32,875 bases of DNA, taken from IMG/VR virus record IMGVR_UViG_3300010883_000217, positions 1 through 32,875 of that record; one strand, 5' to 3'. The DNA is from a virus. Made by a program: the position numbers and the translations under genes. Under the pieces are notes generated by a model that searched no databases, was not told the DNA's origin, and saw nothing but the letters and a program-made list of their open reading frames with translations. How positions within the stretch are numbered: the stretch's first letter is position 1; the number at the start of each line of letters is the position of its first letter. Below are positions 1 through 32,875 of the stretch, one piece after another.

Positions 1-3000
1 CGTACTCCTGGTCTTCTGGGTCAAATCCGGGGGGTTCCAGTGCTCCCGCTGGGTCGATGATGAGGATGTCCCCTTCCTTGACCCCTTCCTGCTGGAAGTT
101 GATCTGTCCCGGATCGAGCCCCGCGTTCGTGTCCGTGAAGCGATTGATGGACGCCTCGTAGACCAGCGCCTTCCACTCGTCGAAGTCCGCTGGGGTGTGT
201 GGGTCAGGCAAGGTGGCCACATACTCCGCCCAGGTTCCTACGTCCGCTGTGTCCCAGAGGATGAATCCTCCGTTGTCTGGATAGTCCGGGCTGTCCGGGT
301 TGGCAGGGGTCCACTCCATCGTCCGCCGATAGACCATCACGTCTGTTGTCAGTTCGAGCAGTTCCTCGTTGGACTGCTCGTGCGGCACAGGAGCAATCCG
401 CATGAAGACCTGGAAGGCCAAGCCGGACCAGTCAGGATGGCTATCGGGTGCCGTGCCCACCAAGCCGGGTGGCCGCAAGGACAAGGTCTTGGCATCTGTG
501 ATGGTGCCGATCTCAGCCGTGGCAATGACCTCACCCGTTATCGGATGAAGAACCCGGACCTGGTCACCTGGGTTGATGTTGACATCGTCGTTGTCGAAGC
601 CGCCGAGCTGGGTGCCCTCTCCTTCCGCCACGAAGGTCGCGAAGTTCCCAGTCCCCGTGTAGGAGTCGATGGTCCCGTAGCGAATCTCGTAGCAGAAGCG
701 GAGCGCCTGGAGGTTGGTCGAGAAGTCGTCGAGTACATCGTGCCATCGACGAACCCTGCGAACAGAGAACGCCACGCGGTTGTACAGCGGGTCGCCCCAA
801 GTCGCAGTGTCGGTAACGAAGTCCAAAGACCCGCGAGAACCCACAGCGGAGTCCGTCAGGTCTACACCTGGGATGACAGGCGGCCCGTCCGCCTGGTCGC
901 ACGAAACACGAGGAGAGAAGACGAGCCCTTCACCTGGGAAGGCTGAGTCTTCCGTGCCGTCGTCGTTCAGGTCCCCAACCGAACGTGGGAAGGAGGGCTC
1001 CAGGAAGATGCCCGCCTCGGCGTAGTAGCCCGGAAGGTCTGTCTCTGTGCCTCCGGTATGGTCGAAGAACGAAGTCGCCACCTGACTGGTAGGCATCAAA
1101 GCGAAGATGGCCGTGTCCAGCGCGTCTGCTACCAACTCAGCCGTCTGGGTAAGCGTCTTCCACATGTCATCGGTGACATCTGACAGGTCGAGCAGGAGAG
1201 CGCCGCCTTCATGAACGAACTCTGGCTCCTCTTCCCGGAACTCACCCTGGTGGTTGGGCACAGCAGCTTCTTCGAGGACCATGCCCACATCTACTGCATA
1301 GGTGCTGCTGGTGGTGGTGACCAGGTTCCCGCTCGGGACAGACCACTCAGAGTAACCAATGTAGTCAACAGGAGCCCCAGCCAACACAGAGTCCAGGTCA
1401 TACAGCGAGGGGACCTTGATGCTGATGGCTGAGAACCCAAGGAGGGAGACATCATTTGCCGAGCCATAGTCGGTGTGCTCAGTGTGCCCAGTGACGCCCT
1501 TGTTTGGGAGTCCGGCTCCAGTGATGTTCAGGGGCATCCGTTGGATACCGAAGAGCCGCTTACCCACGACACCCTCGATCTCCTCCTCTTCGTCACCTAC
1601 CAGTTGAGCGAGAATCTGCTCGTTGGAGTAGGCATAAGGAGCCACAGAGAGGAGTTGCCCACACGCATCGGCCACCGTACTAAGGTCAATCTTGAAAGAT
1701 GTCTCCCCTGAGGTGTGCGTGTAGTCCGCTTTGAAGACCCTTGTACAGAAGGTCTCCACAGTGTCGTCAGTCTGCGGCGTAGAGCGATAGATGTAGAGTG
1801 GGTTGCCGTTGCCCACCCCCGTCGTGCCCACGTCATCCCACGCGCCGTGGAGTTCATGCCCTTCCCAGGTCACCAACTCATCGAAGTGGATGATTGCGTG
1901 GGTGCCTGAGTCGTCCTCCACCTCTGTGATGGTCGGGAAGTAGGACTGCGCCCAGGCCGTAGGTCCTGGAGCAGGAGCGACAAGAGTCATTGCCCGGACG
2001 CGAGCCTCGGCAGGCTTGGCATCTTCCGCAGGAGATCCTGGGTTGGCGTCATAGGTGTCTGTGATTGCGTTCGAGGAGACCGCGTGTCTGACCAGATAAG
2101 TCCCCTCCTTCACCGTAGCCGCTCCGTCAGTGAGCAGATCAAGCTCGTCTTCTGGGGCAAAGTTGACAGCAAGAGTGTCCCCAGCCATGACTTTGGAGGG
2201 GTTGAAGGAGGATGACCCGTCCTCCTTCGTGTAGACTCGGATCTTGTTGGCCCACCGGGAGTCACGAGCCCAGACAGGCGTCGCGTCTTCCCAAAGGCGG
2301 TCCATGACCCCGGAGCCTTTGCAGAGGAACACTGAGTCGTCCTGGGCCACCTCTGAAGAGGGCATCGCTGAGAACGTCGCCCCAGTGAAATCAATCTCTA
2401 CGTTGCCGTGACCCTCCCAAGGCATGACCTTGAGAGCAGTCACCCCTGCATGAGTGTCTGTGACGAACCCCACGCCGTTGACAGTGTCGGGTGTTGTCCC
2501 ATCACGGCTCTTGAAGGTGAACGGGTCACCCGCGTTGACGCTGTCGGGGTTGTTGATGGTGAGGTGGACCTCCTGCTTCGAGACAGGATTCATATCCTCC
2601 TTGAACAAGGTGCCTTCCACCTGACTGACCTCAAGGCGAATCTCGAAGTCAGTGTCGCCCGCACCTGGTCCGTGGGTGTCCCAGAGAGGGTGCTTGGTCC
2701 CTCGGGGCCAAGCCAAACGGAAGTCGAAGTTCTCAATGAAGCTCAACCTGTCCGTGTCGATGTAGGCCGTCTTCCCCTTGACGACCTCGAACTGCATGGT
2801 GAAGTCGAGGAACAACTCGTTCCCCACGTCATCCAAACCGTAGGTCCAGAAGTGGTCCGCGTCGTAGTCGGGGTTGGGGTCGCCAGCGTTCGGGTGACCG
2901 GGTGGGAAGAACTCCTCGTCCCCATCGGTGTCCTCCTCCTCTGACTCGAACAGGTCGAAGGGGAACCACTGCGCGGTGGTGAACTCGTCGTAGTCGGGGT

Positions 3001-6000
3001 CTGCCGGGAAACCGTAGCCGCCGTCTCCTGGCATATTCCCCAGGGCGTCCACAGGGTCCGTGTGTTCATCACTCGGATGAACCGTCCTGATGATGAGCTT
3101 ACTCCCATCGAAGTAGATGCCCCCATCGTTGTCCGGGCGGATGATTCGGACTTCCGTGACGGGGTTGTTGCTTGTATCAGTTGCGAAGGCCCTCTGCCCA
3201 CCAGCAACGTGGTCGTACACGCTGAGGAAGAAGACGGGTTCGGAATGAGCGCCGTCGATGTCAACGATGTGCCCGGAGGTTCCTGCGGTCCCCACTCGGA
3301 GTTGGATGGTTGCCCTGGCCATCCCATCTCCTGGCTGCGGGTCGGCCAAGTCCAAGGGTCTCGCCAGTATGTCGAACTGGATCTTGGTGTCCTCTGCACA
3401 GTTCGACAGGACTGAGTTGAGACCGCCTTCAGGCCAGTCACCGACGGAAGGGTCAAAAGAGCCGCCTCCGTCACCGTCATCCAAGACCAGGAACCCTGCC
3501 CCAATAGAGGCCGTAGAGATGTGCGTCTCGGTGTACCTGTCCGGGTAGTTCGGGGGGTCGGTGTCATGACCAATGACCCATTCGTCTACTCGAAGCCCCG
3601 CCAGGTAACCCGTGCTGTGGTCGCTCCAAGCCGTGGCGTTGGCAATCGTGTACGAAATCTCCGCGCCTTCGGTAGTCGGGCTGACGAATCGAGGAGGCTC
3701 GATGTATGTCTCAGGACCATCGGAGGGCACAACGGCCCCAATCTCCAAGATCCCTTGGGAACCTGGGGGAAGGGCTGCGTTATCGTCGTCCGGCTCAATC
3801 AAGAGCAAGTCGTAAGACCTGACATCCCCAACCCCGGTGTGGGCCTCATACGTTCCGTTCGTTGGAGAAAGGTCTGCCTCCGTAGCCATAGCCGCCGGGT
3901 ACGGACCATCCGGGGCAACCGACCCATCCAAAGACAGGACCTCATCTGGGTACACCGCCTTATGGACGTGTGGCTGAGGTACGGGGAGGGTGGTGCAATC
4001 GGACAGCGCGATCCCGGTTACGGCACGGGCTGCTTCTTGGAGTCTCTGAAGCTCTGTGTTGTTGACGCCCATGTACGGGATCGTCCAGTCGCCATCGTCG
4101 TCTCGATTCTCACCGAGAAGTGCTGGTATTTCAAGGGGTTCCAGCTCGAAGTTACGGAACTCAACGATGGACTCAACTTCCATCTGAGGGCTCGGTGTCT
4201 TCTGACCCAGCAGGTCCTTGAGTCCGAAGAAGGTCGGGTCTGAGAAGCTGGGGAACGAAATGTCCCGGTACTCACCGCGCCGCATACGGACGCTGTAATC
4301 GAACCCCTTGCGGAAGTTGGGCATGGCCGATGCAATCATCGCCATGTCTTCAGCGGTCGGGGGGTCATTCAACTCGACTTCGACCCCGCCTCCGAGAGCT
4401 TGGGTAATCGTGTAGCCTCGAAGAAGCTCAATCGGCGGACCCCCGTCATCAGAGGTCATCTCTACGAAAGCGTTGCCATTGGTGATGGGGTCGTCCCCAT
4501 CAGTGAACGTCATCACGCAGCCCTTGTAGATAGCACCAACAAAGACTGGCTTGACCTTGGTCATCCCAAAGATGTCCAGGGACACATCCGTGTGTCCCCC
4601 ATCGAAGAACTCCCCAGTGGGCCTTCCGAACTTGATCTTCATCCCAGTCCTGAACCCAGGCGTACTGATCTCCCAGTCACCAGTAGTCAGGTCAGGCGCT
4701 CCACCATCCATCATGGTCGCGAGCTTCCCTACGTCAGGCTTGCCTTGCTCATCCAACGGGAAATCAACCAGCAGGTTGGGCGTCGCAACGATGGCTGGTT
4801 GAGGGTTGTTGGTGAAGTCCGAACCAAGGAGGGCGTCCCATTCCGGGAACCCCACAGAGCTGTACTTGTAGATGCGGGCGCGAGACGTGCGTGGGTAGGT
4901 GTCAATGTCCGTCAGGTCATTGATCTCCCCCAACACGGGGTTGGAGATGTTCCCAGAGGTCCTGAAGAAGGAGGACCGGAGCTTCCCTCCTCGGATGCCC
5001 AAGAACAGATGCTCGCCGTAGTCCCCAGCTTCTGGGTTGGCCCCTACGCCAGGGAAGAGGGTAGTGAACCCACTGGCCCGCTCGGGGAAGATCCGAGAGA
5101 ACTCGTTGGGGTCGGCCATGCGCTCGAAGCGCCCCTTCGCCTTGATGATGAAATGAGGGAGGGGGAGGAACCTCAGTATGATTCGAGGCCGCTTACGGCC
5201 CACGATGATGAGGTCATCGAGGTCATTGCGGATGAGCCTCCGCTGCTGCTGAAGCATGAAGTCAAAGTCGTCCCCCTCTATCCAATCCCCTTCGACCTGC
5301 CCGTCTGTGTCAAAAGACGACGAGTTTGGGACGACGACCCAGTCGTCGTCCTGGATGTAAACTGAGGATGCCCCGCGCCGAGCGACGAAGACCTCAGTCC
5401 AGATGTTCCTCGGGACGATTCGGCCTGTGACTGGGTTCTCCCAACCAGGAGGGGTGAACTCCAAACCCTCGCCCACCCAGAAGCGGAACTTCCCATCTCG
5501 GTCGCCGACCATACGGCCTGAGATGTTCTCGGTGATCTGCTCGAACGCCACGATGGTCGCGTTGTAGAACGCCAGGAACTTCCGACCTGCTCGGTCGGTA
5601 TCAAGTAGATGCTCACGTTCCACAGTGAGACCAACGCGGCCCTGCTCCCAGTTCTTGGAACCTCCCCACCCTCCCGTGGACGGACCAAAGGATGGATTCT
5701 TGGAGTTGGCTTCCTTGACCATGTCGAGGGCTACTTCGCCCATGTGGTCCAGGAGAGGAACCGTCCGGCAATAGAACGAGTCTGGGGACCGGAACGTGTA
5801 GGTTCCCAGGAGTGCCGCACCCTGCAAACCGTTGTCCTGGCTCGGGGCCACAGTGTGACGGAACTTGGTCGCAAACCGTGGGAAGACGACCTGTCCACGG
5901 TGCAGCTCAGGTCGTGCGGTGGTGATGCGTGTGCGTGCGAAGTAAAGCTGTTGGGTCGCCTGAAGCGGGGCCTGAAGCGGCTGCTGAAGGGTGATGTTCC

Positions 6001-9000
6001 CAGTCATGGGGTCCACAGCGTAGTGGATGCCTTCGGCCAAGGTGCGCCCAGGCTTCTCGGTCCCGTCGATGTTCCTCTCTCCCCACAGGACGACTTCGTA
6101 AGGGAGATCAGGAAGATAGGCTCCTGCCCCAATGTAGTCTATCGGAGCGGGTGGGTAGACGGGTCGAGTCGTAACCGAGACAGAGTCAGTGCCGTAGGTG
6201 AACCCCTTCGGGAAATCAGGGGTGACGGCAATGGTAGTCCTGCGCCCGTCGTCGCTGAGCTTGAGACCCACGATAGAATGTGGACACCCACCGATCTCAA
6301 GGATGTGGCCCGCCACGAACTTACCCATACAGTTAGCCACCACGACCAACTCTGTACGGCCCTTGGACACAGGCTCATAGACTGGCTCTTCGGCCAACTC
6401 AAGCAGGTCCTGAATCGGGACAAGGAACCCGCCAGGTCCGTCTGTTGCGATAGCGTCCCCGTCCGGGTCCACCACATGAGCAATAGGCTCAGCCGTATAG
6501 AGAGTCAGCGTATCGTTACCAGGGGCGCTGGAGCCCACACCAAGTCCGGGGACTGGAGGGAAGATCCCCACCGTCGTCAAGCCCGTCCCCGCGTCGTACT
6601 CAACACTCTTGAGGTAGAACGACGCACCGCCAATCCTAAGCAGCGCACCCTCTACTAAGTCCCCTGTGCGGTCTGACTCCAACTGGAACTCTTCGAGGCC
6701 ACCCTCCAAACGGAAAGGGGGTCTGTACACCGGAGGTTTGGAAACGGTGTAGGAAAGCTCTCCTCCGAAGGCTTCGAGAACAGCGTAGCTGATACTGACG
6801 TTCGTGCTCTCCTCCACCTCGAAGAAGAAGTTGATAAGGCCGTTCTCGATGTCGATGCTGGCATTGTCGTAATCGTAGTTGGCTTGTTCAGCCCCGAAGT
6901 ACGCCAGCGGGGTGACAGTGTCGAAGACGGTCTTCCCTTCTGGGTTGAACGAATACTGCTGTGCATTGATCCGCACGCAAGACTCACGTCGAACGTAAAG
7001 GGGCAGATTTTCGTTGATGACCGGAAGGACCTCCCCTTCATCGCCCGTCGCCAACTGACCAGCCTTGTCGGATACCCGATACTCCACCTCAACGATCTGA
7101 CCAGGACCCAAAGGTTCCCGGAACATGAACGCTCCTGCTAAGGGGTTCAGATAGACATCCTTCTGTTGCTCGGTGATCATTTGAGCGGCCCAGTACAGCG
7201 ATGCTCCTGTGTACTGGGAGAGGTCGGCAGAAGAGAGGTTCAGGTCCCCCGTGCCTTGGTTGACTTCCACGAACCCAGGTTCCAGTGAGGATGACGGGGT
7301 CTCGACGTAAACGACCTGCGCTTGGTCCTGAGAATCCAGAAGAGCCCCACTGAAACGGACTTCCCCGGTGCCGTCATCCAGGTACTCCGCGAAGTCTGGG
7401 TCCTCGGAGAACTCGGAGACACTAAGAAGCTCGACTCCGGGCCGGAGAACCTCCACGCCGACGTGTAGCTCGAAGTCCCCATCCAACACCCTCTGAGAAG
7501 TCGGATCTGGGATGTAGATGCCCGCGTTCGAAATAGTCCCGAGAGAGTCCATGTCCAACCAAAGGACTTCCAGCTCTGGGGAACCAAAATCGAGCCCGGC
7601 TCGAACTACGACCCTCCGTCCACTCTGAAGGTCCTTCCCTACAATGGCTTGCAACGGGTTCGCAGGATCCTGCTGAGACGGACAGTCGCCCACATAGGAC
7701 ACCTTCCGAATGTAGAACGGCTCCTCTGGGAGATGGTTGAACTGCTGGTAGACCTGGTCCGCCACGACCTGAGGGTCAATGACATCCTTCGTTTTCTGGT
7801 CGTAAATCTCCCAAGACATCGGAGCAGACCCCGAGTCGGCTGGGAAGGCTGGCTCAACCGTGATCACCTCAGCGGTGACATCCACGATGCGATACGAACC
7901 AGCCGCATCTCCGGTGTTCAACTTGAGACGGTCTCCAACTTCAATACCAGCCGCCACGAACCCCGCATCTGTATCGGTCAGTGTTGTGCCGTCCAGGTCG
8001 AAGAACCCCTTGGAACCATAGTGGGCCAACCCTCCGATTTCTTCGACCAAGACAGCCATCCCGGTCAGACCCTCCTGGGGGAGAAGGAAGTCTTCACCCG
8101 GCTGAAGGAGTGCAAAAGGGTCCCCGCCGAAGGATGCCCTCAGATAGCCGTTCAAGGCTGGGTGGAGCGTTTCCTCAACGATGCCCTGCCCACCCAGGTT
8201 CAGATACGACACGGGGGCTTCAGCGGCCCAGGAGGACCGCTTGTTGTCGAGCCATGCAAACTGTCGGTCCTCGAAGCGGTAATGGATGTCCTCCATCGCC
8301 TCAAGCCGCTTCCGATACGGACCTGCCTGAATCTCGAAGAAGACCCCATCATCCACCCCGGCGATGTCCACCAGGGGAATCTGCTGTATGAACGTAAAGG
8401 GGACTGGCTGCACGGTGGTCAGCATCTCCCCTTCGATGCGGCTCGTTGACTTGAAGTCCGGCTCGACCCCACTACCGTCTTCGTTGAAGGGGCTGCGCCA
8501 GAGACCAATGCTCTGACCGGAGTCAACCAGCCAGTTGGGGTCCAGCGCGGTGCCTTTGATTGAAGGGTCTATGGGAGCGGTGGTCTTCCACCCCGGCCCG
8601 AACCCAAGCGCCGCTGTCCCGGAGAAGTCTTTGACTCCATCCTGGCCGTAGAGAATCTCTACGGTGCCGTTAGTGATGTTGTTTGGGGCAATGACCAGCC
8701 GACCGTTGAACTCGTAACAGGTCCCCGCAGTGTTAGCGATAAGAGTGTCAATGGAGAGGGCTACCTCCGTAGCCGAATACAGCCCGCCCTCCTCTGTAAC
8801 GCTTCCTGTGAGTTGGATAGCGTCCCACTCGAACACAGGGTCGTTATCTATGATGAAGGAGAGCTTCTCGTCGCCTCGTAGAGTGAATGGCCCCTCCTTC
8901 CGGGAGACCATCCGAGCGTCCTCTGCGTAGGTAGCTGGTGTGAAGTCCGCCTGGAGGAAGTACAACGGCTTGTCGTTGTACTTCATGAGGTCCTTGAAGC

Positions 9001-11008
9001 CGATCATCGCGTGAGAGTTGTTGGTGCTCCCTTCGGTGACGTAGACCTTGCCCCGGCGAATCATGAAGGGGAAGTCTGGTAGGTCATCGGCGGTGTCCCG
9101 AATGGACAGCTTCTCGAAAGGATGGCCTGGGACGAAGAAGAAGGTGTCGCCAATCCCCTTCACCTGCCTCATGAGCCCGGAGTCTCCTGGGCGAGTGTTC
9201 ACAACGGTGTGTGCTGGTACTGCCCCTACCTTGTCTTCAACATGTAGAATCCCGGAAGTGCCGAGACCCTCGGGCTTGGCATCGGGGACGGAGAAGGTGA
9301 AGTCCCCGGAAATCACACCAAGAGAGGCGGCGGCGCGTGCAGGTTGTGACATCCGGTTCAGGACAATGCCGTCGTAGAACACCTTGTCGCCCACAAAGAG
9401 CTTATTGAAGTCGGGGTTCGGGCTATCTACATCCCCCATGATGGTCTTCGTCACATCAGCGGGGGAGAAGAGAACCATCCCCGTGGACAACGACACAGCC
9501 ACGTTCCCAGTCTCAATGGTGACCTCGTCGGGGAGTTCGTTGTCGTTCTCAAAGTACGAGACCTTGAGCCAGCGTCGGCTCCCAATCCGCAAGAGTGCGT
9601 GGTCCGTGACGCCGGGGATGGGGGCAATAAACAGCGGAGACTGGTCCGCATCGGACAGCTTGCCCACCACACCCTTCGAGTCCTTGTTCAAGGTGCGGGG
9701 GATGTACCAGACCACCTGGCCCGCATACTCCATGAAGAGCGCAGGGTTCCAAACGATGATGCCGTTGGTTTCGCCTACGATGCCCGCTGGCGCAGGATCT
9801 CGGGACCCGAAGTCGTACTCCCCAGACGCGGCGATGTCGTCCGGGACAACTTCAATGCCCCTGAAGTCCGCCCCTGTCTCATCATCTCCAAGAGGGATGC
9901 TGTTGGCAGAAGGCATCGCCCCCAGTCGCAGCATCGCGTACTGGTCCTTGTCCAGAGAGTGGGGTCCAACCGCACCAGGCAGGTATTCACCAATCGTCAG
10001 GTTCTGGGGCTTGGGGGTGAGTTCATAGCTCTCATCGGGGAGGAGCCGACCCATGTTGATAGGCGCTCCTCCTTTGATGGGTTCCCACCGCTGGTCTTTT
10101 CCCTGCCAATGGAACCGCTCCATCTCGGGGTCGTTCCTGGTCCACCAAAATCGTGGGGATGCCAGGTAATAGACAACCTCTACGACGCGGTCCCCACGTT
10201 GCCTGGACATGGCAGGGGAGCTTCCGTCCATTGGCCTCAGCAAACCTCGGGTATTGGAGGTGTCGTTGATGGTAATCAGACCCGCCTCTGGGTCATCACA
10301 GGAGATGTCTCCACTGGATGTCGTGAGAGTCCGGTCGATCTTGAGGTCGTCGTCTCCCAGGTTGATGATGACCGCCAGGACCCCAGCAATGGTGCGCCCC
10401 CCATCGTCCGTGACGACCAAACGAGTGGTGCCATCCGAGATGGGGTTGATAACGGCAGCGGCCCCGTAGAAGGTTCCCGTGGGGGCGGTCTCCAGTGTGG
10501 CTTCAGTGTCTGACTCGACGGAAGCCACCCGGACGACGTAGAAGCCCGTAACGACGGAGGCCCCTTCGATAAGCTGAGAGAGGAACGAGGTCCCAGTCCC
10601 CACAAGCTGGTCGCTACCCGCAGTGAGTTGAACAGCTCCTACAAGAGGGAAGGTGTAGCCCTCAGCGTCGTCGGTGGAGACCTGCTGGGTTCCTGAAGGG
10701 ATAGCAACAGTAGCGTCGTTGATGGGGTAGGTGGGGTCTTCCACCACGCTGAGGTTCGACGAGTTGGCGGAGAAGACGAGGTACTCCTCAAGCTGACCTT
10801 CTCGACCTTCGAGGATTGCGGAACGGTACTGGTCTACATACGGGCGAACCAGTTCGGTCGCTCCCCAGTGACTGATGTACTGGGCGCTGTAATCCGAGGA
10901 CAGTGTCCTGCAATCAGCATAGATGCCTCCTGTCGTTGGAGCCGTAGACTTGCTGTTCGCAGGAGCCACACGGGGTCCCCTGAGGGTATGTCCGTCAAAG
11001 ATTCCCAC
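1..11008 (-). CDS. Giant tail/baseplate-associated structural protein, more than 3,669 residues, 3' end beyond the window
   Basis: A single minus-strand frame is open from GTG at 11008 to base 2, with no stop. The left edge is in the same frame and reads ...PPGFDPEDQEY. I recognise no enzyme. The protein is acidic and rich in Gly, Asp, Pro and Thr, with many short beta-type segments. A module of the form TDTDAGF...GIEVGDRLKL lies near residue 1,010, and a related one (FTDTNAGL...GVKEGDILII) near residue 3,640. A fibre-like VGTGTSFLSQLIEG segment lies near residue 137. Asp-rich stretches near residues 1,515 (VDPDGDAIATDG) and 2,690 (EEEDTDGDEEFF) may bind calcium. The gene follows the spike and a small gene in the same operon, so a virion baseplate or fibre role is inferred. 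The start has almost no Shine-Dalgarno sequence and directly abuts the previous TAA, so translation may be coupled. GTG at 10969, behind AGGGGA, is an alternative start. The gene is certain; the function is not. Confidence 0.85.
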   Translation of the reverse strand, partial: MGIFDGHTLRGPRVAPANSKSTAPTTGGIYADCRTLSSDYSAQYISHWGATELVRPYVDQYRSAILEGREGQLEEYLVFSANSSNLSVVEDPTYPINDATVAIPSGTQQVSTDDAEGYTFPLVGAVQLTAGSDQLVGTGTSFLSQLIEGASVVTGFYVVRVASVESDTEATLETAPTGTFYGAAAVINPISDGTTRLVVTDDGGRTIAGVLAVIINLGDDDLKIDRTLTTSSGDISCDDPEAGLITINDTSNTRGLLRPMDGSSPAMSRQRGDRVVEVVYYLASPRFWWTRNDPEMERFHWQGKDQRWEPIKGGAPINMGRLLPDESYELTPKPQNLTIGEYLPGAVGPHSLDKDQYAMLRLGAMPSANSIPLGDDETGADFRGIEVVPDDIAASGEYDFGSRDPAPAGIVGETNGIIVWNPALFMEYAGQVVWYIPRTLNKDSKGVVGKLSDADQSPLFIAPIPGVTDHALLRIGSRRWLKVSYFENDNELPDEVTIETGNVAVSLSTGMVLFSPADVTKTIMGDVDSPNPDFNKLFVGDKVFYDGIVLNRMSQPARAAASLGVISGDFTFSVPDAKPEGLGTSGILHVEDKVGAVPAHTVVNTRPGDSGLMRQVKGIGDTFFFVPGHPFEKLSIRDTADDLPDFPFMIRRGKVYVTEGSTNNSHAMIGFKDLMKYNDKPLYFLQADFTPATYAEDARMVSRKEGPFTLRGDEKLSFIIDNDPVFEWDAIQLTGSVTEEGGLYSATEVALSIDTLIANTAGTCYEFNGRLVIAPNNITNGTVEILYGQDGVKDFSGTAALGFGPGWKTTAPIDPSIKGTALDPNWLVDSGQSIGLWRSPFNEDGSGVEPDFKSTSRIEGEMLTTVQPVPFTFIQQIPLVDIAGVDDGVFFEIQAGPYRKRLEAMEDIHYRFEDRQFAWLDNKRSSWAAEAPVSYLNLGGQGIVEETLHPALNGYLRASFGGDPFALLQPGEDFLLPQEGLTGMAVLVEEIGGLAHYGSKGFFDLDGTTLTDTDAGFVAAGIEVGDRLKLNTGDAAGSYRIVDVTAEVITVEPAFPADSGSAPMSWEIYDQKTKDVIDPQVVADQVYQQFNHLPEEPFYIRKVSYVGDCPSQQDPANPLQAIVGKDLQSGRRVVVRAGLDFGSPELEVLWLDMDSLGTISNAGIYIPDPTSQRVLDGDFELHVGVEVLRPGVELLSVSEFSEDPDFAEYLDDGTGEVRFSGALLDSQDQAQVVYVETPSSSLEPGFVEVNQGTGDLNLSSADLSQYTGASLYWAAQMITEQQKDVYLNPLAGAFMFREPLGPGQIVEVEYRVSDKAGQLATGDEGEVLPVINENLPLYVRRESCVRINAQQYSFNPEGKTVFDTVTPLAYFGAEQANYDYDNASIDIENGLINFFFEVEESTNVSISYAVLEAFGGELSYTVSKPPVYRPPFRLEGGLEEFQLESDRTGDLVEGALLRIGGASFYLKSVEYDAGTGLTTVGIFPPVPGLGVGSSAPGNDTLTLYTAEPIAHVVDPDGDAIATDGPGGFLVPIQDLLELAEEPVYEPVSKGRTELVVVANCMGKFVAGHILEIGGCPHSIVGLKLSDDGRRTTIAVTPDFPKGFTYGTDSVSVTTRPVYPPAPIDYIGAGAYLPDLPYEVVLWGERNIDGTEKPGRTLAEGIHYAVDPMTGNITLQQPLQAPLQATQQLYFARTRITTARPELHRGQVVFPRFATKFRHTVAPSQDNGLQGAALLGTYTFRSPDSFYCRTVPLLDHMGEVALDMVKEANSKNPSFGPSTGGWGGSKNWEQGRVGLTVEREHLLDTDRAGRKFLAFYNATIVAFEQITENISGRMVGDRDGKFRFWVGEGLEFTPPGWENPVTGRIVPRNIWTEVFVARRGASSVYIQDDDWVVVPNSSSFDTDGQVEGDWIEGDDFDFMLQQQRRLIRNDLDDLIIVGRKRPRIILRFLPLPHFIIKAKGRFERMADPNEFSRIFPERASGFTTLFPGVGANPEAGDYGEHLFLGIRGGKLRSSFFRTSGNISNPVLGEINDLTDIDTYPRTSRARIYKYSSVGFPEWDALLGSDFTNNPQPAIVATPNLLVDFPLDEQGKPDVGKLATMMDGGAPDLTTGDWEISTPGFRTGMKIKFGRPTGEFFDGGHTDVSLDIFGMTKVKPVFVGAIYKGCVMTFTDGDDPITNGNAFVEMTSDDGGPPIELLRGYTITQALGGGVEVELNDPPTAEDMAMIASAMPNFRKGFDYSVRMRRGEYRDISFPSFSDPTFFGLKDLLGQKTPSPQMEVESIVEFRNFELEPLEIPALLGENRDDDGDWTIPYMGVNNTELQRLQEAARAVTGIALSDCTTLPVPQPHVHKAVYPDEVLSLDGSVAPDGPYPAAMATEADLSPTNGTYEAHTGVGDVRSYDLLLIEPDDDNAALPPGSQGILEIGAVVPSDGPETYIEPPRFVSPTTEGAEISYTIANATAWSDHSTGYLAGLRVDEWVIGHDTDPPNYPDRYTETHISTASIGAGFLVLDDGDGGGSFDPSVGDWPEGGLNSVLSNCAEDTKIQFDILARPLDLADPQPGDGMARATIQLRVGTAGTSGHIVDIDGAHSEPVFFLSVYDHVAGGQRAFATDTSNNPVTEVRIIRPDNDGGIYFDGSKLIIRTVHPSDEHTDPVDALGNMPGDGGYGFPADPDYDEFTTAQWFPFDLFESEEEDTDGDEEFFPPGHPNAGDPNPDYDADHFWTYGLDDVGNELFLDFTMQFEVVKGKTAYIDTDRLSFIENFDFRLAWPRGTKHPLWDTHGPGAGDTDFEIRLEVSQVEGTLFKEDMNPVSKQEVHLTINNPDSVNAGDPFTFKSRDGTTPDTVNGVGFVTDTHAGVTALKVMPWEGHGNVEIDFTGATFSAMPSSEVAQDDSVFLCKGSGVMDRLWEDATPVWARDSRWANKIRVYTKEDGSSSFNPSKVMAGDTLAVNFAPEDELDLLTDGAATVKEGTYLVRHAVSSNAITDTYDANPGSPAEDAKPAEARVRAMTLVAPAPGPTAWAQSYFPTITEVEDDSGTHAIIHFDELVTWEGHELHGAWDDVGTTGVGNGNPLYIYRSTPQTDDTVETFCTRVFKADYTHTSGETSFKIDLSTVADACGQLLSVAPYAYSNEQILAQLVGDEEEEIEGVVGKRLFGIQRMPLNITGAGLPNKGVTGHTEHTDYGSANDVSLLGFSAISIKVPSLYDLDSVLAGAPVDYIGYSEWSVPSGNLVTTTSSTYAVDVGMVLEEAAVPNHQGEFREEEPEFVHEGGALLLDLSDVTDDMWKTLTQTAELVADALDTAIFALMPTSQVATSFFDHTGGTETDLPGYYAEAGIFLEPSFPRSVGDLNDDGTEDSAFPGEGLVFSPRVSCDQADGPPVIPGVDLTDSAVGSRGSLDFVTDTATWGDPLYNRVAFSVRRVRRWHDVLDDFSTNLQALRFCYEIRYGTIDSYTGTGNFATFVAEGEGTQLGGFDNDDVNINPGDQVRVLHPITGEVIATAEIGTITDAKTLSLRPPGLVGTAPDSHPDWSGLAFQVFMRIAPVPHEQSNEELLELTTDVMVYRRTMEWTPANPDSPDYPDNGGFILWDTADVGTWAEYVATLPDPHTPADFDEWKALVYEASINRFTDTNAGLDPGQINFQQEGVKEGDILIIDPAGALEPPGFDPEDQEY

Positions 11009-11596
11009 TTATACAACCATGCTCGAAGGGGTGGTCCCTACTCCTGGAGCGGGTCCGGCCCCAGCGGGAGCCACGACCCCAGTACCGAACCCAAGCATCG
11101 TGTTCAATGCGATCCCGTTGCCAATGGCCTGAGCCAACTGGCCTGAGTAGATGCCTGTGATACCCATCGCTGCGAAGTAGCCATGAATCTGCCCCCCGAG
11201 CGCAGGCCCGTTAGCGGAGACGATCTTGGCTACGTCAGGCCCCAGCGAGACACCTGCTGCTGGCCCCATGTACAAACCCGACTGTGTAAAGGTCATGCTC
11301 ACTCCAACTGCAATAGCGGTAGCCACCTCCGCCGCCTTCACACCGATGATACCCGCAGCAGCAAAAGACCCTATGACCAAAGGAGGGGCTGGAGGTACGA
11401 CCAGCTTGCCATTGACGATACCCGCACCCAGAGTCCCGGCAGCGGCCCCGAGAATCAGCAGGTTGACCGGATTCGCGGTACACCAGGAGAACACCCCAAG
11501 ACCGATGGCCTCTGTAAGAGGAACCCAACCTATGGTAGGTGGGATGGCACTACTCGAACGGATATTCAGGGCTATTTGACTCGGAACCAAAGGCAT
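11009..11596 (-). CDS. Small Gly/Ala-rich hydrophobic tail protein (195 aa), possibly spike-associated
   Basis: Residues 1-195 begin MPLVPSQIALNI. The ATG at 11596 is preceded by AGGGAGGT at a good distance, which overlaps the spike gene's TAG stop. This rules out a longer in-frame start inside the spike gene. The protein is rich in Gly, Ala, Ile and Val, with hydrophobic stretches (for example LLILGAAAGTLGAGIV and IGSFAAAGIIGVKAAEVATA) and an Ala/Gly/Pro-rich C-terminus. I see no clear PAAR repeat and no signal peptide. Its position directly after the spike suggests a small baseplate or tip component, or an assembly factor; this rests on context only. A lysis or membrane role is conceivable from the hydrophobicity but has no support from the neighbourhood. 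The stop TAA is followed immediately, in the same frame, by the GTG of the giant gene. Confidence 0.6.
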   Translation of the reverse strand: MPLVPSQIALNIRSSSAIPPTIGWVPLTEAIGLGVFSWCTANPVNLLILGAAAGTLGAGIVNGKLVVPPAPPLVIGSFAAAGIIGVKAAEVATAIAVGVSMTFTQSGLYMGPAAGVSLGPDVAKIVSANGPALGGQIHGYFAAMGITGIYSGQLAQAIGNGIALNTMLGFGTGVVAPAGAGPAPGVGTTPSSMVV

Positions 11597-25500: not shown

Positions 25501-27004
25501 TTTGGGCTCGAACCCAGTCCGGGGTCGTGGTCTTGTCTCGGGAGTCTCCTCCCAACTGTCCAGCATTGGCAGCTTCCTGCATCTTCGTACCGAACGAGTT
25601 GGCGGTATTCTCGCGACTCCGGGTCATGATTCTTTTAGTTCGCTTGGTGCCTGTCAACTTGACCCTCTTGATGCGGTCCTGCATGGACTCGTTCACGAAG
25701 CCCTTACCAAGGGTATCGAGGAAGTCACCGCCCACCTTCGATCCGAGAATCTTACCGATACGGACCAACAGGGCTGCGGCCTCACTGAGACGGACGTTGT
25801 ACATCGACATACCGGACGTTGCCTGAATGACCATCGAGAAGAAACGCTTGACACCAAACCCCGACTCTTGGGCGTGCTTGGTGACTTCAGCGAAGCGCGT
25901 GGCCACACCTTCAATAGTCAGCCCGAGGTCCTCCATGTAGCTCGCCATGTCGGTGGCCACCTTCGCCGAGTTCTCCCCCAATAGGCGAGAATAGGCCAGG
26001 GCATGAGAGGTCGCCCTGCCGTAATCCCGCATCGCTTGTTCAGAGTTCTCGATGTTGACCGTCATCTCCCTTAGCATGACGCCCGCTTCCCCGAAGGCCC
26101 CGACGATCCGAATCTGTTCATCAGCCATTGCACCAAGAGCCCATTGGTTATCAACGGCTGCTTTACGCATGTCGCGCAAAGACTTGGCTACCTGACCGAA
26201 ACCCCCAGCGGCCATTTCGGCTGCACCATGCGTATTGAGGATCTCCTTGTTCAGTTCAAACGCCTTGTCTTGAACCGCACCAATAGCTTTCACGAGCCCA
26301 ATCACAGCCGTGGCGACACCTCCAATGACCAGCAGTGCAGGCCCGAGCTTCGTCATCACCTTGCCGACACCACCGAGCAGCTTCCCAGCCTTGCCGCCCA
26401 TAGCCTTCCCGGCATTCATCGCGCCCTTGCCGCCCTTTTTCATGCCTCCGCCCATGCCCTTGAAGATGCCCCCCAAGTCACCGCTCTTGATATTGCCGAT
26501 AAGGTTCTCAGCAGCCTTTCCGAACCCCTCTGCGGTCTCTGTGGTGATCTTGGCCATCCCCTTCTGCATGAACTCAAGGTGGGACTTCTGCGCGTCTTGT
26601 AGGTCCTTTTCCCCCTTCAACCTGAGGTCGATTTCCTGCTGGGCGGACTTGATCTTCGCCTTGTGCTCCTTGACCAACCTCTCCATCTTGTCTCGATGGG
26701 TCTTCTTGAGGAAGTCCTTCGACAACGCCTCGTTGTATCGAGCGATCTTGGCTACGGACTCCATCATCTGGGATCGGTACTGTTTCTCTACCTTGGCGAT
26801 GCCTTGAAGATCGAAGTCAATGTCGAGCTTGGCGGCGGTACGGAGCAACCCAGCAAACTTCTCACCTACCTTGGTGAAGCCCTGGTCCATCTTGACGTAG
26901 TCGATGGAGGACACTGCGTTTGAAGCGGCTTTGGTGAGGTCGCTCTGAAACTTATCCAGACCACCCGCCTCAATCTGAATGACTGCGTCAATGACGGTTT
27001 TCAT
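22505..27004 (-). CDS. Tail tape measure protein (1,499 aa)
   Basis: This protein sets tail length and is packed inside the tube until DNA ejection. Evidence: it is the long helical protein after the tube and the chaperone-position genes; residues 70-150 are charged and coiled-coil-like; residues 182-220 form a Gly/Lys/Met-rich stretch followed by a hydrophobic segment at about 219-244 (GPALLVIGGVATAVIGLV), typical of tape measures; the middle is Ala/Gln/Glu-rich; and the C-terminus is a Gly-rich linker then TFTVMINNKGDEQRAYDMVV, a common tape-measure ending. No lysozyme or peptidase motif is evident. Using the usual 1.5 angstroms per residue, the tail would be about 220 nm long (inference). 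The ATG overlaps the previous gene's TGA by one base (TGATG), so translation is likely coupled. Confidence 0.93.
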   Translation of the reverse strand: MKTVIDAVIQIEAGGLDKFQSDLTKAASNAVSSIDYVKMDQGFTKVGEKFAGLLRTAAKLDIDFDLQGIAKVEKQYRSQMMESVAKIARYNEALSKDFLKKTHRDKMERLVKEHKAKIKSAQQEIDLRLKGEKDLQDAQKSHLEFMQKGMAKITTETAEGFGKAAENLIGNIKSGDLGGIFKGMGGGMKKGGKGAMNAGKAMGGKAGKLLGGVGKVMTKLGPALLVIGGVATAVIGLVKAIGAVQDKAFELNKEILNTHGAAEMAAGGFGQVAKSLRDMRKAAVDNQWALGAMADEQIRIVGAFGEAGVMLREMTVNIENSEQAMRDYGRATSHALAYSRLLGENSAKVATDMASYMEDLGLTIEGVATRFAEVTKHAQESGFGVKRFFSMVIQATSGMSMYNVRLSEAAALLVRIGKILGSKVGGDFLDTLGKGFVNESMQDRIKRVKLTGTKRTKRIMTRSRENTANSFGTKMQEAANAGQLGGDSRDKTTTPDWVRAQNDSGGSAGTVDYAALGDQIGLTGFSGSSADDLAQAIAATSGREQAQLISAFEGATARTVERDDKTLVVQTNDEMTRQLQTLVNLAQGSEGGLTNMAAHLDDLDMGGVMNMMMNSAKTLFPGKELYELSAVQLAAVESSTGISGEQLRVMRRLSQQMDGDFQELQRIALEQTEVTDQTMREQIAQFGGFINENGQFVAGAIVDDLPQAVAGATAVALVDTNAAGDAVAMSDAGSERAREGFVQAIGSTMDDAVAAGMVDENLALSREIAENTFSLSNYMESGIGWIMERLYGAVEAIKNWLFGKDDDGAARVQAGEELRRGSEGLATQDRALRGSIQEKRRGLRTEEDPEKRRAIEAEITALEGERENVRVDQVLYRDAEQRVNSPTTDFSVANPDTVLRTIGQFFGAERGSEMSDQYRNQALQQSTGDTDLQGKLSAVSPTYKTALEQANTTLPTNVENATASQISHQRANMSGRHSHMGPVPEYLGLTTPLPAGSGDSRFNLGLPSFRSDAGTTEYAGEQRISSGQVIDGQFIPPGAAAMAMGGNWTGPDGTTSMTDAPGVQFDDFQSWAEQSGIDITQAQVIEHMLAQGIINLDVMSSGSQRLMTGMGIDIHGQSNWPANPTPGETPPLDQRSLAMAGGTFDLQQPTPTFAMAAPGMNQGDFIGDLLARFQGGESLQSIQDTLGGDRVTTNSRTEANEVAGQFALQQTREGMGDGVPRTLMASVLKETSRGLPIDAGNDSNPITGSLNADADARKIRAVVGEVMSGTNDEGEMTATREELTEKLQGLTLSNGETAWDVYTRHQRENANRDRRLQDFQKRDLAPEFADLIGKQLQETEKTRQRLIANKLAQALGYSRNNVQRMGANIQDGDWSKVTLAAAAFEKHPDDHIDVTKRGTYVNPDEGLRNQLTSMGYAQDFIYQGDSSGTGKIWSLPSNEELMGIRSGGAVDRLIGALANGGGAGGGGGSGTFTVMINNKGDEQRAYDMVVRALQAYGLT

Positions 27005-28221
27005 CAGTCATCCTCTCGGGCAGTCGGCTTTCGGCTCCGAATCTGTTCCTGAAGCGGGGTTTTGGGCTGCGGCCTCTTCTCGACAAGGGAATCCCCGTCG
27101 GACTCCAGGTTCCCATCCTTGATCTCCGCATGAACCCAGCGGTCGAAGGCTCTTTCCCTCCGACTTGGTCCCTCCGCGATTTTTCTGATTCCCGGTTGTT
27201 CCATGTTGTCCCCTCGCTCAACCATCATCTGTTGTATCTGATTGAGGGAATATCCAACTACGGACGGACGATGTGGGTCCCAACCCATCTTAGCGACGGC
27301 GGCCTCGGCCTCGCGACGAACAAGATCAAGGCGCTGCTCCCGCTCCGCCTTCTCCCGAACCATCTTCTCTTGAATGTTCTGTTTGTAATCACTCACAACC
27401 GTGTCGTGGCGGTCCTCCTTGCCAGTCACCCAGCGGTGCATCTCTTCCATCAACTCTTCAGCCGTATGGGCCTGGAAGACTTCATCCCGGAAGGCCAACT
27501 CATTGGCCAGTTGACCGTCCTCCGTGAGAACACCACACGAGCGGTAGTAAGCGTCGTCCATCATTCGTTGACGGTCGTTCTTGAGCTTGTCGGCCTCTGT
27601 TTGGTCTCGCGTCTCTATCTTCTTCATCGCCTTGGGTGCATGGGGGGCCATCCCTTGTTTGCACAGCAACCAGGCGTACTGGTTGTCCAGACGTTGGTCC
27701 TCACCTTCATTGAAAGCCCTCCAAAGCCTCTGGACCATGTTTGAACCCAGGAACTCGGTTTCGAAACCTGTGTCTTTACGACCATAAGGAGGCGGCCCTA
27801 AAGACTTCCACAACTCCCTGGACTCAAGCTCCATGCAAAACCCGAAGCACATCGTATAAGCCTGTTGGGTCCTGATAATGAGACCCAAGGTGACCATGAA
27901 CAACGTCTGCTGAATCAGCTTTGGAAATAGCTTGAAGATTTCGTAGGTTTCGGCTTCCTGGTGGACATCAGGATTTAGGAAAACCTTCCCGTCAATGGCC
28001 CAGATGCTCCTCAGGGTTAGACGGTCGGACCAATCCTCTCTGCCCTCTCCCCATACCCAACGCATGTAGTCGATGTCCGAAGAGAGGGGACTCCGAACAC
28101 AGATTATGTGGTCTCCTATCCGAACGCGAGCGGTCAGGAACCCAGGGTAGATGAGGGTACGAAGATCCTCCCAATGGGGATAGCGAACTTCCGGTGTAGT
28201 TACCGGGAGGGAGGTAGCCAT
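27004..28221 (-). CDS. Protein in the second tail-assembly-chaperone position (405 aa)
   Basis: I do not recognise a named domain. The N-terminal 130 residues are a folded region (LRTLIYPGFLTARVRIGDH, then a WVWGEGREDW stretch). Residues about 190-310 are charged and helical. The last 100 residues are Arg/Lys/Glu/Pro-rich and probably disordered. Lying immediately before the tape measure gene and overlapping it by one base, it occupies the place of a tail assembly chaperone or a tape-measure partner; this is inferred from position. The ATG at 28221 lies 7 bases after the upstream stop, with GGTGAG overlapping that stop as a weak ribosome site. It is longer than classical gpG/gpT-type chaperones, so another structural or assembly role is possible. 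Confidence 0.5.
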   Translation of the reverse strand: MATSLPVTTPEVRYPHWEDLRTLIYPGFLTARVRIGDHIICVRSPLSSDIDYMRWVWGEGREDWSDRLTLRSIWAIDGKVFLNPDVHQEAETYEIFKLFPKLIQQTLFMVTLGLIIRTQQAYTMCFGFCMELESRELWKSLGPPPYGRKDTGFETEFLGSNMVQRLWRAFNEGEDQRLDNQYAWLLCKQGMAPHAPKAMKKIETRDQTEADKLKNDRQRMMDDAYYRSCGVLTEDGQLANELAFRDEVFQAHTAEELMEEMHRWVTGKEDRHDTVVSDYKQNIQEKMVREKAEREQRLDLVRREAEAAVAKMGWDPHRPSVVGYSLNQIQQMMVERGDNMEQPGIRKIAEGPSRRERAFDRWVHAEIKDGNLESDGDSLVEKRPQPKTPLQEQIRSRKPTAREDD

Positions 28222-28228
28222 AAGCTAC

Positions 28229-29401
28229 TCACCGCTTCGGAGGAACAAACTTAGGATTGCGTCCGTCAGTGGATTCTTCCGACTCTTCCGGCTGGTTTGG
28301 ATGGGAAGCAGAGGAGGGGTCAAAAACCTTGACAGGTGACTTCTTGTCCTGGGTGTTAGAAGCATCGTAAGCGCCTTGGTGGGGAGGGCCTGCGCGGCGA
28401 GACCGCATCTTCTGGAGCCGTTCCGTCTCGGCTGCGGCTGCGTTAGCGAGACCCTCCGAATCACCCGAGTCCACCCAACCTTCGTTCAATGGAGGGGGTC
28501 CAATGTTGCCCCCTCGGGCAGTGATCACCTCGTCCACAGGTTCCTGGGGCTGGGGGTCTTCTCCGCTCTTGATACCCTCAGAGGAAGGCCCACGGACCCA
28601 CCCCGAACCACTCCGATTCTCCAATGACTCAGCAGCGGGATGCTCGAAATCTTCGGGGAGTGTGCTCTTCGTTGGTTCAGGTGGGAGAGGGGAGCCCGTT
28701 ACTGGGAGGATGGGTCTCCGACCGCCTGTTTCGGCGGTGGGGGTGTCTTCGGAAAACGAGGTTTCAGCTTTGGGCTCAGCTTTGGGCTCAGCTTTGGGCT
28801 CAGCTTTGGGCTCTTCAGAGCCGACCAGACCGACTGTCTGGAGAGCCGCTACATGGCCGGGCGTCTTGATCTGGTTCTTCTCTCTTGCAAGACGAAGGTC
28901 TTCCAACCTGTCGATACGTCCCTGCAACCGAGAAATCTCCGCATCAAGATCGACAGGTTCGAACTCGATGAGCTGGGAGACCTCGATCTCTTGCCGCTCC
29001 ATCATCTCACCGAACTTGCGGAAGATGGCATCCAGGAGAGGCCGTGCGAAGGTCTTCAGGACATCACGCAGGGCCAGGTGCTTAGCCACCTTGACGGCAA
29101 CGCCGTTTGGGAGCACCTCCCCGGTCTCAATGTAATCAAGACCTCGAAGGTTCTGGTCTCCTATCTGAACGAGGGAATGGGACAAGCAGCCTGTCTTGAA
29201 CCTGTCGAGGTAAAGGATGCCTGAAGCGTTGTCGTCATCGCCCTCAACAGCCGAGGCTGCCCAACGCTGGACTTCAACTTCCTGGTCTGGAACCAGAGGA
29301 ATGATGACGACGTGGAGACCCTCCACATCGAACTCTTCTTCCTTCAACCCCAACCCACAAATGGGCTGGAATGCCTTTCTTAGGGACTCAACACTTAGCA
29401 T
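28229..29401 (-). CDS. Protein in the first tail-assembly-chaperone position, with a disordered C-terminal half (390 aa)
   Basis: Residues 1-145 form a folded domain (EEFDVEGLHVVIIPLVPDQE near the start, then YLDRFKTGCLSHSLVQI and a helical segment of the form LKTFARPLLDAIFRKFGEMM). Residues about 150-176 are a short coiled coil (ISRLQGRIDRLEDLRLARE). The remaining half is Pro/Glu/Ser/Gly-rich and low complexity, with a four-copy EPKA repeat at about 197-212. It sits between the tube candidate and the tape measure region, where tail assembly chaperones lie, so that role is inferred from place and from the compact N-terminal domain. ATG at 29401 has GGAG 9 bases upstream. I found no slippery site joining it to the next gene. 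Confidence 0.5.
   Translation of the reverse strand: MLSVESLRKAFQPICGLGLKEEEFDVEGLHVVIIPLVPDQEVEVQRWAASAVEGDDDNASGILYLDRFKTGCLSHSLVQIGDQNLRGLDYIETGEVLPNGVAVKVAKHLALRDVLKTFARPLLDAIFRKFGEMMERQEIEVSQLIEFEPVDLDAEISRLQGRIDRLEDLRLAREKNQIKTPGHVAALQTVGLVGSEEPKAEPKAEPKAEPKAETSFSEDTPTAETGGRRPILPVTGSPLPPEPTKSTLPEDFEHPAAESLENRSGSGWVRGPSSEGIKSGEDPQPQEPVDEVITARGGNIGPPPLNEGWVDSGDSEGLANAAAAETERLQKMRSRRAGPPHQGAYDASNTQDKKSPVKVFDPSSASHPNQPEESEESTDGRNPKFVPPKR
28765..28812 (-). repeat. Four exact copies of a 12-base repeat (EPKA units)
   Basis: CAGCTTTGGGCT on the plus strand is repeated four times without a mismatch and encodes the repeated residues EPKA in the disordered half of the 390-aa protein. Exact copies of a whole number of codons suggest replication slippage that keeps the frame. 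Confidence 0.95.
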
Positions 29402-30976: not shown

Positions 30977-32875
30977 TTAGAGCTGGCTACGCAAGTTGAA
31001 GTTGAGAACGATGTACAACAGCGGGAAGACTGGCTGATAGAAAGCCTCCATGTTCGCCAACGTCGGGTCATCTGAGGAGACGGTCGCCTTCACACCCGTG
31101 TAGTTCGTGACGATCTGCGCTGCAATCATGCGCTGGAACATCATGCAGAGGTTCCCCTCAAGCTGAGAAAGGATACCAGGCAGGAACTTCACGCCGATGT
31201 AGTTCTGCAACGCTGCACGAGAACTCTGCTGTACCAGGTCTACGATCTGAACAACCGTAGGCGTTTTGGTAAGCACATCGGTCATGTCCGATGAGAGACC
31301 GTGGCGAACCTGAATCATGCCCGCCTTGTTCTCACAAACCGAGATACCTGCCGAAGCGACCTGATTCATGGCTACGGCATCCATCTTACGAGCCAGACCA
31401 TTCGTACCCACCAGACGGGTTCCCGTCCAAGGGGTCGCAACGTCCCGGTTGGAACTCAACTGCCGAGCCGCCATCATGCACGCCAGGTAGCGTCCGTCGA
31501 TAAGAGACTCCGTGTCGTTGCCCAAGTAGTCCGTAGTCGTCACGGTCATCATGTCCGGGTACATGAACCTAACCCGCCAGTCCCCAGCGCCTCCATTGAG
31601 GGCAGAGACAAGAGCAGCGGCCTCTGAAGGCTGCGTACCCGCCGAGAACCCAAGAAGGGTAGTCCGCTCTGCGTGGTGAGCAATGTCCGACTGAATCGTA
31701 CAGTGCTCACTGAGATACTGTGCCATATCCAAGGAAGCCGGAACCAGAGGAAGCAGAAGGGCGGGGCGAATCCCACCCGGAAGCATCCCCTCCAACTCGT
31801 CGATGGCATTCAAGTAAGAGGACTCTGGAGCGTTGGTTTGACCAGGAGTCTTCAGAACCTGCTTGACCCCGATGGCACCCGCGCCATTGAGCATCATCAA
31901 GTAAGAAGCCAGGCTCACTGGAGCATCAGGCCCAGTCGCTCCGTAGCTGTCCTCCAAGACCTGGAGCTTAGTGAAAATCTTCGGAGTGAAGTCACGCTTC
32001 TGGAAGGTGTAGGTCACATAGTAGGACTGGTTGTTGGCAGGTTCCTTCTCGTTGGCCCCGCGCTTGTAGGTCTCAATCGAAACCGTATCTCCAACCTCCA
32101 CCCCAGCGGTGTTGGCAACCCAGGTCCACAGACCCGGAATAGCGGTGACCGGGTTGTTGGCGTCACAGACACCCTCTCCCCGAACCGTCATGTTGTAGGT
32201 TGCCGTAGCGCCCGTGTCGTAGTTTCCAGCGCCGTCACGTTCGAGGATGGTGAAGGTCAAGCAAGTCACAGAGTCTGTGTAGGTCTGACCAACAACACCA
32301 TCAGAACCGCCTCCACCCGCTGAGAGCAAGGAGTCGTTTGCTGACCCGGAGCCGTTGGGGTTCGAGGAGGAGACAATGAAGCCAGACCGACCAGCCTCAC
32401 CGACAGCCCCTTCACCATCTTCCACAAGGAGACCAGATCCGCTAAGGATTGCGTTGCCTCCATCGCAAGCGATATTGGAAGCCGTGCCATGAGACAAGGT
32501 TGCGAGGAAAACAGTCTCCGCACCCGCGTCGTCTGACTGTGCCAAGGCCAAGGCCAAGGCCCCGTAACCACCAGCGAAGTCGATGACCCCAGAATCCCCA
32601 ACGATGCCCTGCATGTTGAGATCGACGCCCTCGGCAGCCTGGATAGCTCCAGCAAGAGCCCCCGCAGCCACAGCAGTTCGAGAGGCGCTGGACTCAAGTC
32701 CCAGATCAGCGTGGGCGTTGCCTGAGTCTTCCGTGATGGACACGCTCGACCCAGAGCCACCTGTGACGCTGCTAATGCGAAGGGCAGCGCCCTCTTGCAT
32801 CACAACTCCCGCAGTGATTACGTCCGCCGCTGCGGAGTAGCCCGTTTGGGCCACAATCGCGGCGATGATCTGACC
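30977..32875 (-). CDS. Contractile tail sheath protein, 5' end beyond the window (at least 632 aa)
   Basis: Subunits of this family form the outer sheath that contracts to drive the tube into the cell. The frame stays open through the right edge (GQIIAAI precedes the first in-window GTG), so the true start is outside. From about visible residue 295 to the end the chain reads as a sheath: residues about 360-385 (GGIRPALLLPLVPASLDMAQ), HAERTTLLGF near 400, WRVRFMYPD near 435, LIDGRYLACMMAARQLSS near 460, then TPWTGTRLVG, and a final VLNFNLRSQL strand. The first 290 visible residues are an extra Gly/Ser/Thr-rich beta region. It contains a module of the form ALRISSVTGGSGSSVSI..ADLGLES that looks like a decorating domain. 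The sheath gene directly precedes the tube candidate, as expected. The stop is TAA, followed by a strong terminator. Confidence 0.9.
   Translation of the reverse strand, partial: GQIIAAIVAQTGYSAAADVITAGVVMQEGAALRISSVTGGSGSSVSITEDSGNAHADLGLESSASRTAVAAGALAGAIQAAEGVDLNMQGIVGDSGVIDFAGGYGALALALAQSDDAGAETVFLATLSHGTASNIACDGGNAILSGSGLLVEDGEGAVGEAGRSGFIVSSSNPNGSGSANDSLLSAGGGGSDGVVGQTYTDSVTCLTFTILERDGAGNYDTGATATYNMTVRGEGVCDANNPVTAIPGLWTWVANTAGVEVGDTVSIETYKRGANEKEPANNQSYYVTYTFQKRDFTPKIFTKLQVLEDSYGATGPDAPVSLASYLMMLNGAGAIGVKQVLKTPGQTNAPESSYLNAIDELEGMLPGGIRPALLLPLVPASLDMAQYLSEHCTIQSDIAHHAERTTLLGFSAGTQPSEAAALVSALNGGAGDWRVRFMYPDMMTVTTTDYLGNDTESLIDGRYLACMMAARQLSSNRDVATPWTGTRLVGTNGLARKMDAVAMNQVASAGISVCENKAGMIQVRHGLSSDMTDVLTKTPTVVQIVDLVQQSSRAALQNYIGVKFLPGILSQLEGNLCMMFQRMIAAQIVTNYTGVKATVSSDDPTLANMEAFYQPVFPLLYIVLNFNLRSQL

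Follow-up and report, generated by a model that had tools for sequence, protein, structure and literature searches.

The minus strand of the window, by which we mean the whole 32,875-base stretch of viral DNA that was analysed, carries a frame of 3,669 codons (positions 11008 to 2) that has a GTG start codon, contains no stop codon and runs off the left edge. This frame, about one third of the window, is confirmed as one real, unbroken gene. Its product belongs to a widespread family in uncultured viral contigs, and this is a new, unnamed family among giant phage structural proteins already known in outline. The reading we prefer, with a probability of roughly 0.6, is that the complete product is a virion protein consisting of one chain of about 4,000 aa, which would form a conserved baseplate scaffold with a variable, outward-facing arm in a contractile-tailed, probably jumbo, phage. 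Both its presence in the virion and its copy number are points that we infer.

A single unbroken gene and its relatives

The initial annotation described a minus-strand frame open from 11008 to the left edge, with a GTG start and no stop, and the ORF listing and translation bear this out. At the base composition of the window (stop codon p = 0.0346), the chance of an open run of this length is log10 P of about -56. The GTG immediately follows the TAA at 11011-11009 that ends the preceding gene, and the N-terminal residues align with the starts of the giant proteins of L005 and L058. In a comparison with L005, the first two codon positions show higher conservation than the third along the whole frame. 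An in-frame stop or frameshift, or homologues divided into several genes, had been named as results that would count against a single gene. The frame is open throughout, and the gene is one closed ORF in each of 51 non-redundant homologues, plus duplicates. The sole broken copy, in L061, is one base short in a CCCC run relative to the intact and 99.97 % identical L056, most plausibly through an assembly or strain error.

The C-terminal residues absent from the window protein number 334-338 by alignment with L005 and L058 and 359 by alignment with L006 (given here as about 335-360), which places the expected end of the gene about 1.0 kb to the left of the window. The complete protein is predicted to be about 4,000 aa and about 430 kDa.

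Read-through from the preceding 195-aa gene was considered, since in the window the two genes are in frame across a single TAA. In L058 they overlap in different frames, and read-through is therefore not a conserved feature. The 195-aa gene lies between the spike gene and the giant gene in most relatives. Stop-codon recoding was also rejected, as the TAG and TGA codons flagged within matches to the baseplate protein J are the ordinary ends of J. Evidence neither for nor against polyprotein cleavage was found.

Pattern scans with a single protein, either the window giant or the sheath, recovered no relative, but an alignment of two sequences succeeded and confirmed 86 relatives in an IMG/VR scan. 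From these, 74 loci were kept, on contigs of up to 485 kb, and one relative contig was binned in a bacterial MAG. Removal of near-duplicates left 51 complete members (median 3,710 aa, range 3,007-4,164 aa), which are the basis of the family statistics. Homologues are collinear with the window protein at 24-48 % identity, and the nearest, those of L005 (4,027 aa) and L058 (3,986 aa), are 48 % identical to it. When 50,697 phage records were searched with a 3,000-residue protein query, one match was obtained, LR745208.1, with 85 % query coverage. This match is a single closed ORF of 3,642 codons, 35 % identical to the window protein in the main BLASTP block and collinear over the full length. We define the LR745208-type giant family as single ORFs of 3,000-4,200 codons that are collinear over nearly the full length, and the window protein is a single ORF of the required size, collinear with the family. 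L074 (3,049 aa) and L077 (3,007 aa) encode divergent, shorter proteins with 24 % identity and no adjoining spike gene, and represent the outer limit of the family as recovered in this analysis.

No homologue was found in Bacillus phage G, Tunturi_5 or Mycobacterium phage Phabba, and profiles of the middle and C-terminal parts gave no match in phage G or Tunturi_5. As a positive control, the C-terminal profile does match LR745208 and four contigs, sequences that had contributed to its construction. The search found no cultured member of the family. No existing description was found in the open literature searched, which is not proof that none exists. The remark in the initial annotation that proteins this long are rare in phages needs qualification. 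Huge phages encode predicted proteins as long as 7,694 aa, a part of them tentatively assigned as structural (Al-Shayeb et al. 2020, PMC7162821), and PHROGs holds profiles of about 3,000-4,200 positions.

Tail genes around the giant gene

The features of the window are listed in Table 1. In the direction of transcription, the order is sheath, tube, two proteins at the chaperone position, tape measure, the 239-aa and 862-aa tail proteins, hub, spike-like protein, 195-aa protein and giant. The names hub, tape measure, tube and chaperone are based on position and weak matches. The sheath frames of relatives are unusually long (1,607-1,881 aa), and other tail proteins are thus oversized too. An M23 peptidase domain (Pfam 5e-31) is present in the L008 homologue of the hub (L008:2850-7010), and the 1,671-aa window protein does not show it.

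Table 1. Genes of the tail operon and regions of the giant protein in the window
Feature	Position	Strand	Basis or remark
Giant gene, partial	1..11008	-	ORF and homologues; 3,669 codons read
Start of conserved C-terminal domain, aa ~3327 on	1..1030	-	Long helices in missing part, seen in L005
Variable arm, about aa 2478-3326	1031..3577	-	Lowest conservation, length variation
Conserved scaffold, about aa 1-2477	3578..11008	-	Conservation, model, internal repeats
Best conserved block: long helix aa ~1794-1830, containing DRAGRKFLAFYNATIVAFEQI, then GDRDGKFRF	5519..5629	-	Alignment and model
Small beta domain, aa 123-182	10463..10642	-	phrog_1980 'tail fiber protein', E 1.3e-4, weak
195-aa glycine/alanine-rich protein	11009..11596	-	ATG 11596, TAA 11009; between spike and giant
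Spike-like protein, 819 aa	11608..14067	-	Weak Phage_base_V OB domain; DUF2345 in relative L008
Probable baseplate hub, 1,671 aa	14132..19147	-	L008 homologue carries M23 peptidase domain
Tail protein, 862 aa	19178..21766	-	L008 relative: weak match to tail-tube-initiator family
Tail protein, 239 aa	21776..22495	-	Conserved in synteny
Probable tape measure, 1,499 aa	22505..27004	-	Position and helix-rich composition only
405-aa protein at tail assembly chaperone position	27004..28221	-	Position
390-aa protein at tail assembly chaperone position	28229..29401	-	Position
Probable tail tube, 296 aa	29503..30393	-	65 % identity in LR745208; 36 % to Tunturi_5 virion structural protein
Tail sheath, cut by right edge	30977..32875	-	Sheath homologues in relatives

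Among the 43 members with at least 7 kb of upstream sequence, 34 have a spike gene within 3.5 kb upstream of the giant gene, and 34 have the hub protein upstream. Downstream, the order in relatives is a protein of about 80 aa, which is coiled-coil-like, then proteins of about 900 aa and about 300 aa, a gp25-like sheath initiator and Baseplate_J. For members with at least 5 kb downstream, the genes found are the ~900-aa gene (47/48), the ~300-aa gene (37/48), the gp25-like gene (34/48) and Baseplate_J (24/48). The last two were identified by Pfam and PHROG matches (Baseplate_J, 1.7e-15; phrog_6, 3.2e-25; phrog_2669, 1.8e-7). With spike and hub upstream and gp25-like and J genes downstream, the giant gene is in a baseplate gene cluster in most members. 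The hub and spike side of this module is present in the window, and the gp25/J side is known from relatives only. L005 and L058 include the complete C-terminal domain and the downstream ~900-aa gene, both of which are for the most part outside the window, to its left. In G003, J is followed by proteins of 468, 1,052 and 2,143 aa. A very large protein of 2,143 aa with no family match, the second such protein besides the giant, follows the baseplate genes at L100:10017-16445.

The spike gene does not adjoin the giant gene in nine members, LR745208 among them, and the argument from position fails in these genomes. In LR745208 (L002:13482-26215) the giant gene follows a gene for a DNA helicase, and some 90 kb separate it from the sheath gene. 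The giant gene and the ~900-aa gene can thus lie as a pair apart from the tail operon. As this pair is kept in all but one of the 48 members even though the spike is uncoupled in nine, the two proteins probably work together.

Domain architecture and the variable arm

The initial annotation saw no recognised enzyme domain in the giant protein, and domain searches agree: Pfam gave no family for the whole protein and PHROG only the one weak tail-fibre domain. This domain is in an N-terminal insert of low occupancy, which many relatives, including LR745208, do not have. A PDB profile search gave no family, only chance matches to microcompartment proteins. Profile comparison of slices against each other revealed internal repeats (1361-1520 with 1521-1680, and 961-1120 with 3601-3760, L005 numbering).

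Structure prediction for two slices gave strings of small beta domains and helical blocks with no significant match to a whole fold. AlphaFold modelled aa 1270-2469 (52 sequences) as small beta domains and helices (pLDDT 79.8, pTM 0.48), including a 37-residue helix in the most conserved block. For the C-terminal domain, the end of which is missing from the window protein, the L005 sequence was modelled instead and gave a mixed alpha/beta structure with long helices (pLDDT 81.6, pTM 0.76). A Foldseek comparison of the two slices with the PDB gave no E value below 1e-3, and the C-terminal slice gave only partial overlaps in BFVD (query TM-score <=0.12). As only these two slices of the protein were compared, a missing fold match is not proof of a new fold. 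Local matches of small beta domains to T5 pb9, the lambda and Chi tail tips and J-like tail proteins were rejected, as none was convincing as a whole fold.

Conservation is uneven along the chain. The arm corresponds to L005 residues 2501-3360 and comprises about 850 residues. Mean pairwise identity is 0.390 for the scaffold, 0.284 for the arm and 0.438 for the C-terminal domain. Arm identity is below scaffold identity in 99.7 % of 1,275 pairs, which are not independent, so that this contrast is a description and not a test. Even the close pair L011 and L045 shows it (0.76 for the arm versus 0.88 for the scaffold). The arm of L070 has an insert (L070:19562-20140) that matches Pfam Gly_rich_2, with up to 45 % Gly, and the arm of L023 has an insert with a GSGY repeat that matches PHROGs named baseplate wedge and tail fibre. 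The L070 glycine-rich domain resembles glycine-rich domains of phage adhesins. Judged from sequence, the pattern is that expected of a scaffold with one arm that would be exposed and host-facing.

A probable baseplate scaffold and the alternatives

The initial annotation suggested a giant baseplate or fibre protein. The baseplate part is strengthened by the location, in most relatives, between an OB-fold/DUF2345-like spike and the gp25-like and Baseplate_J genes, and by the full-length, collinear homologues, each a single ORF. The fibre part is weakened by the conservation of both ends and of the first ~2,480 residues. In the baseplate reading, these first ~2,480 residues would make up an extended, conserved scaffold in which small beta domains, modelled for aa 1270-2469, are combined with one conserved helical block. 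Residues 2478-3326 would be a rapidly changing arm, directed outwards and able to take up adhesin-like modules. The mixed alpha/beta C-terminal domain may anchor the chain, perhaps through contacts with the ~80-aa and ~900-aa proteins. Such a scaffold could keep a host-sensing arm at a fixed place around the spike and might relay a contact signal to the gp25/J wedge, leading to sheath release. It is possible, and we put it forward tentatively, that a single polypeptide of about 4,000 residues stands in for several separate peripheral baseplate proteins of other contractile phages, with host sensing, fibre holding and triggering covalently joined and a single exchangeable arm. Points against a baseplate role include that sequence and fold searches linked the giant protein itself to no known baseplate protein, and that the 468-aa gene behind J leaves room for a separate gp7/gpI-like partner.

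The second of these points also counts against a special case of the same reading, in which the giant protein is an enlarged gp7-like wedge arm, that is, the exposed, lateral, fibre-carrying part of the wedge grown to about 4,000 aa. A gpI- or gp7-like partner is often encoded directly behind J (the P2-like order), and a separate 468-aa gene has that place here. No similarity to gp7 or Afp12/Alg12 was found by the PDB profile search or by Foldseek of the two slices at E 1e-3. The giant gene does share an operon with gp25-like and J genes, and Alg12 of AlgoCIS has an exposed gp7-like part that binds tail fibres and has been called a hotspot of evolutionary re-engineering (PMC8894135), as the variable arm would be. 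We regard this as a serious variant, if a rather unlikely one. Less probable is a tail fibre or receptor-binding protein that binds the host itself as a homotrimer. The C-terminus is usually the most variable end of a tail fibre. Here both ends are conserved and the C-terminal end is the most conserved part, so a trimeric fibre fits less well, despite the beta-rich character of the protein, the weak PHROG tail-fibre domain at aa 123-182 of the window protein and the adhesin-like inserts, which are in relatives only. The gene also precedes gp25/J, with other large genes (1,052 and 2,143 aa) after them, and no S74 or other chaperone domain was found in Pfam and PHROG searches.

The nine members with the giant gene uncoupled from spike genes, together with the exotic tail appendages known in jumbo phages, would suit a tail-surface or tail-sleeve structure such as a whisker or coil. 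We consider this improbable, given the almost constant link to the ~900-aa gene and the spike, gp25-like and J genes in most members. A tape measure or ejected protein is hardly credible. Tape measures are often the longest phage gene (PMC8570332), but the helix-former content of the giant protein is 0.35, versus 0.47 in the 1,499-aa protein at the tape-measure position, and it is predicted to be beta-rich and is encoded after the spike, not after the chaperones.

Despite the 86 IMG/VR relatives, no Pfam or PHROG model covering the family was found, and 50,697 phage records held one match. Naming the family would annotate about 12 kb in each such genome and provide a specific phage marker. The arm is the place to look for host specificity, and the family can be used to test how one giant polypeptide serves as a central component of a contractile machine.

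Among known systems, the metagenomic huge phage LR745208.1 (485,034 bp, record unannotated) has the collinear giant and homologues of the sheath, tube and hub. It differs in that its giant lacks the N-terminal insert of about 80 aa and is encoded far from the sheath. PHROG 2885, 'baseplate wedge subunit' (4,179 positions), is likewise a giant annotated as baseplate and has a GSGY-type repeat that also occurs in the arm in a few relatives, L023 for example. However, this one short repeat matches weakly and in some relatives only, and neither the window protein nor the scaffold matches. The gp7-like part of Alg12/Afp12/Pvc12 and T4 gp7 is comparable in being exposed, variable, fibre-binding and near gp25 and J (PMC8894135), but the giant protein is a separate and much longer chain. 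For the giant structural proteins of huge phages, the passage concerned (PMC7162821) names no family, position or architecture, unlike the case described here. The sheaths of Bacillus phage G and Tunturi_5 are homologous to that of the window tail module (26-29 % identity), and phage G has a similar order of sheath, tube, chaperone and tape measure genes.
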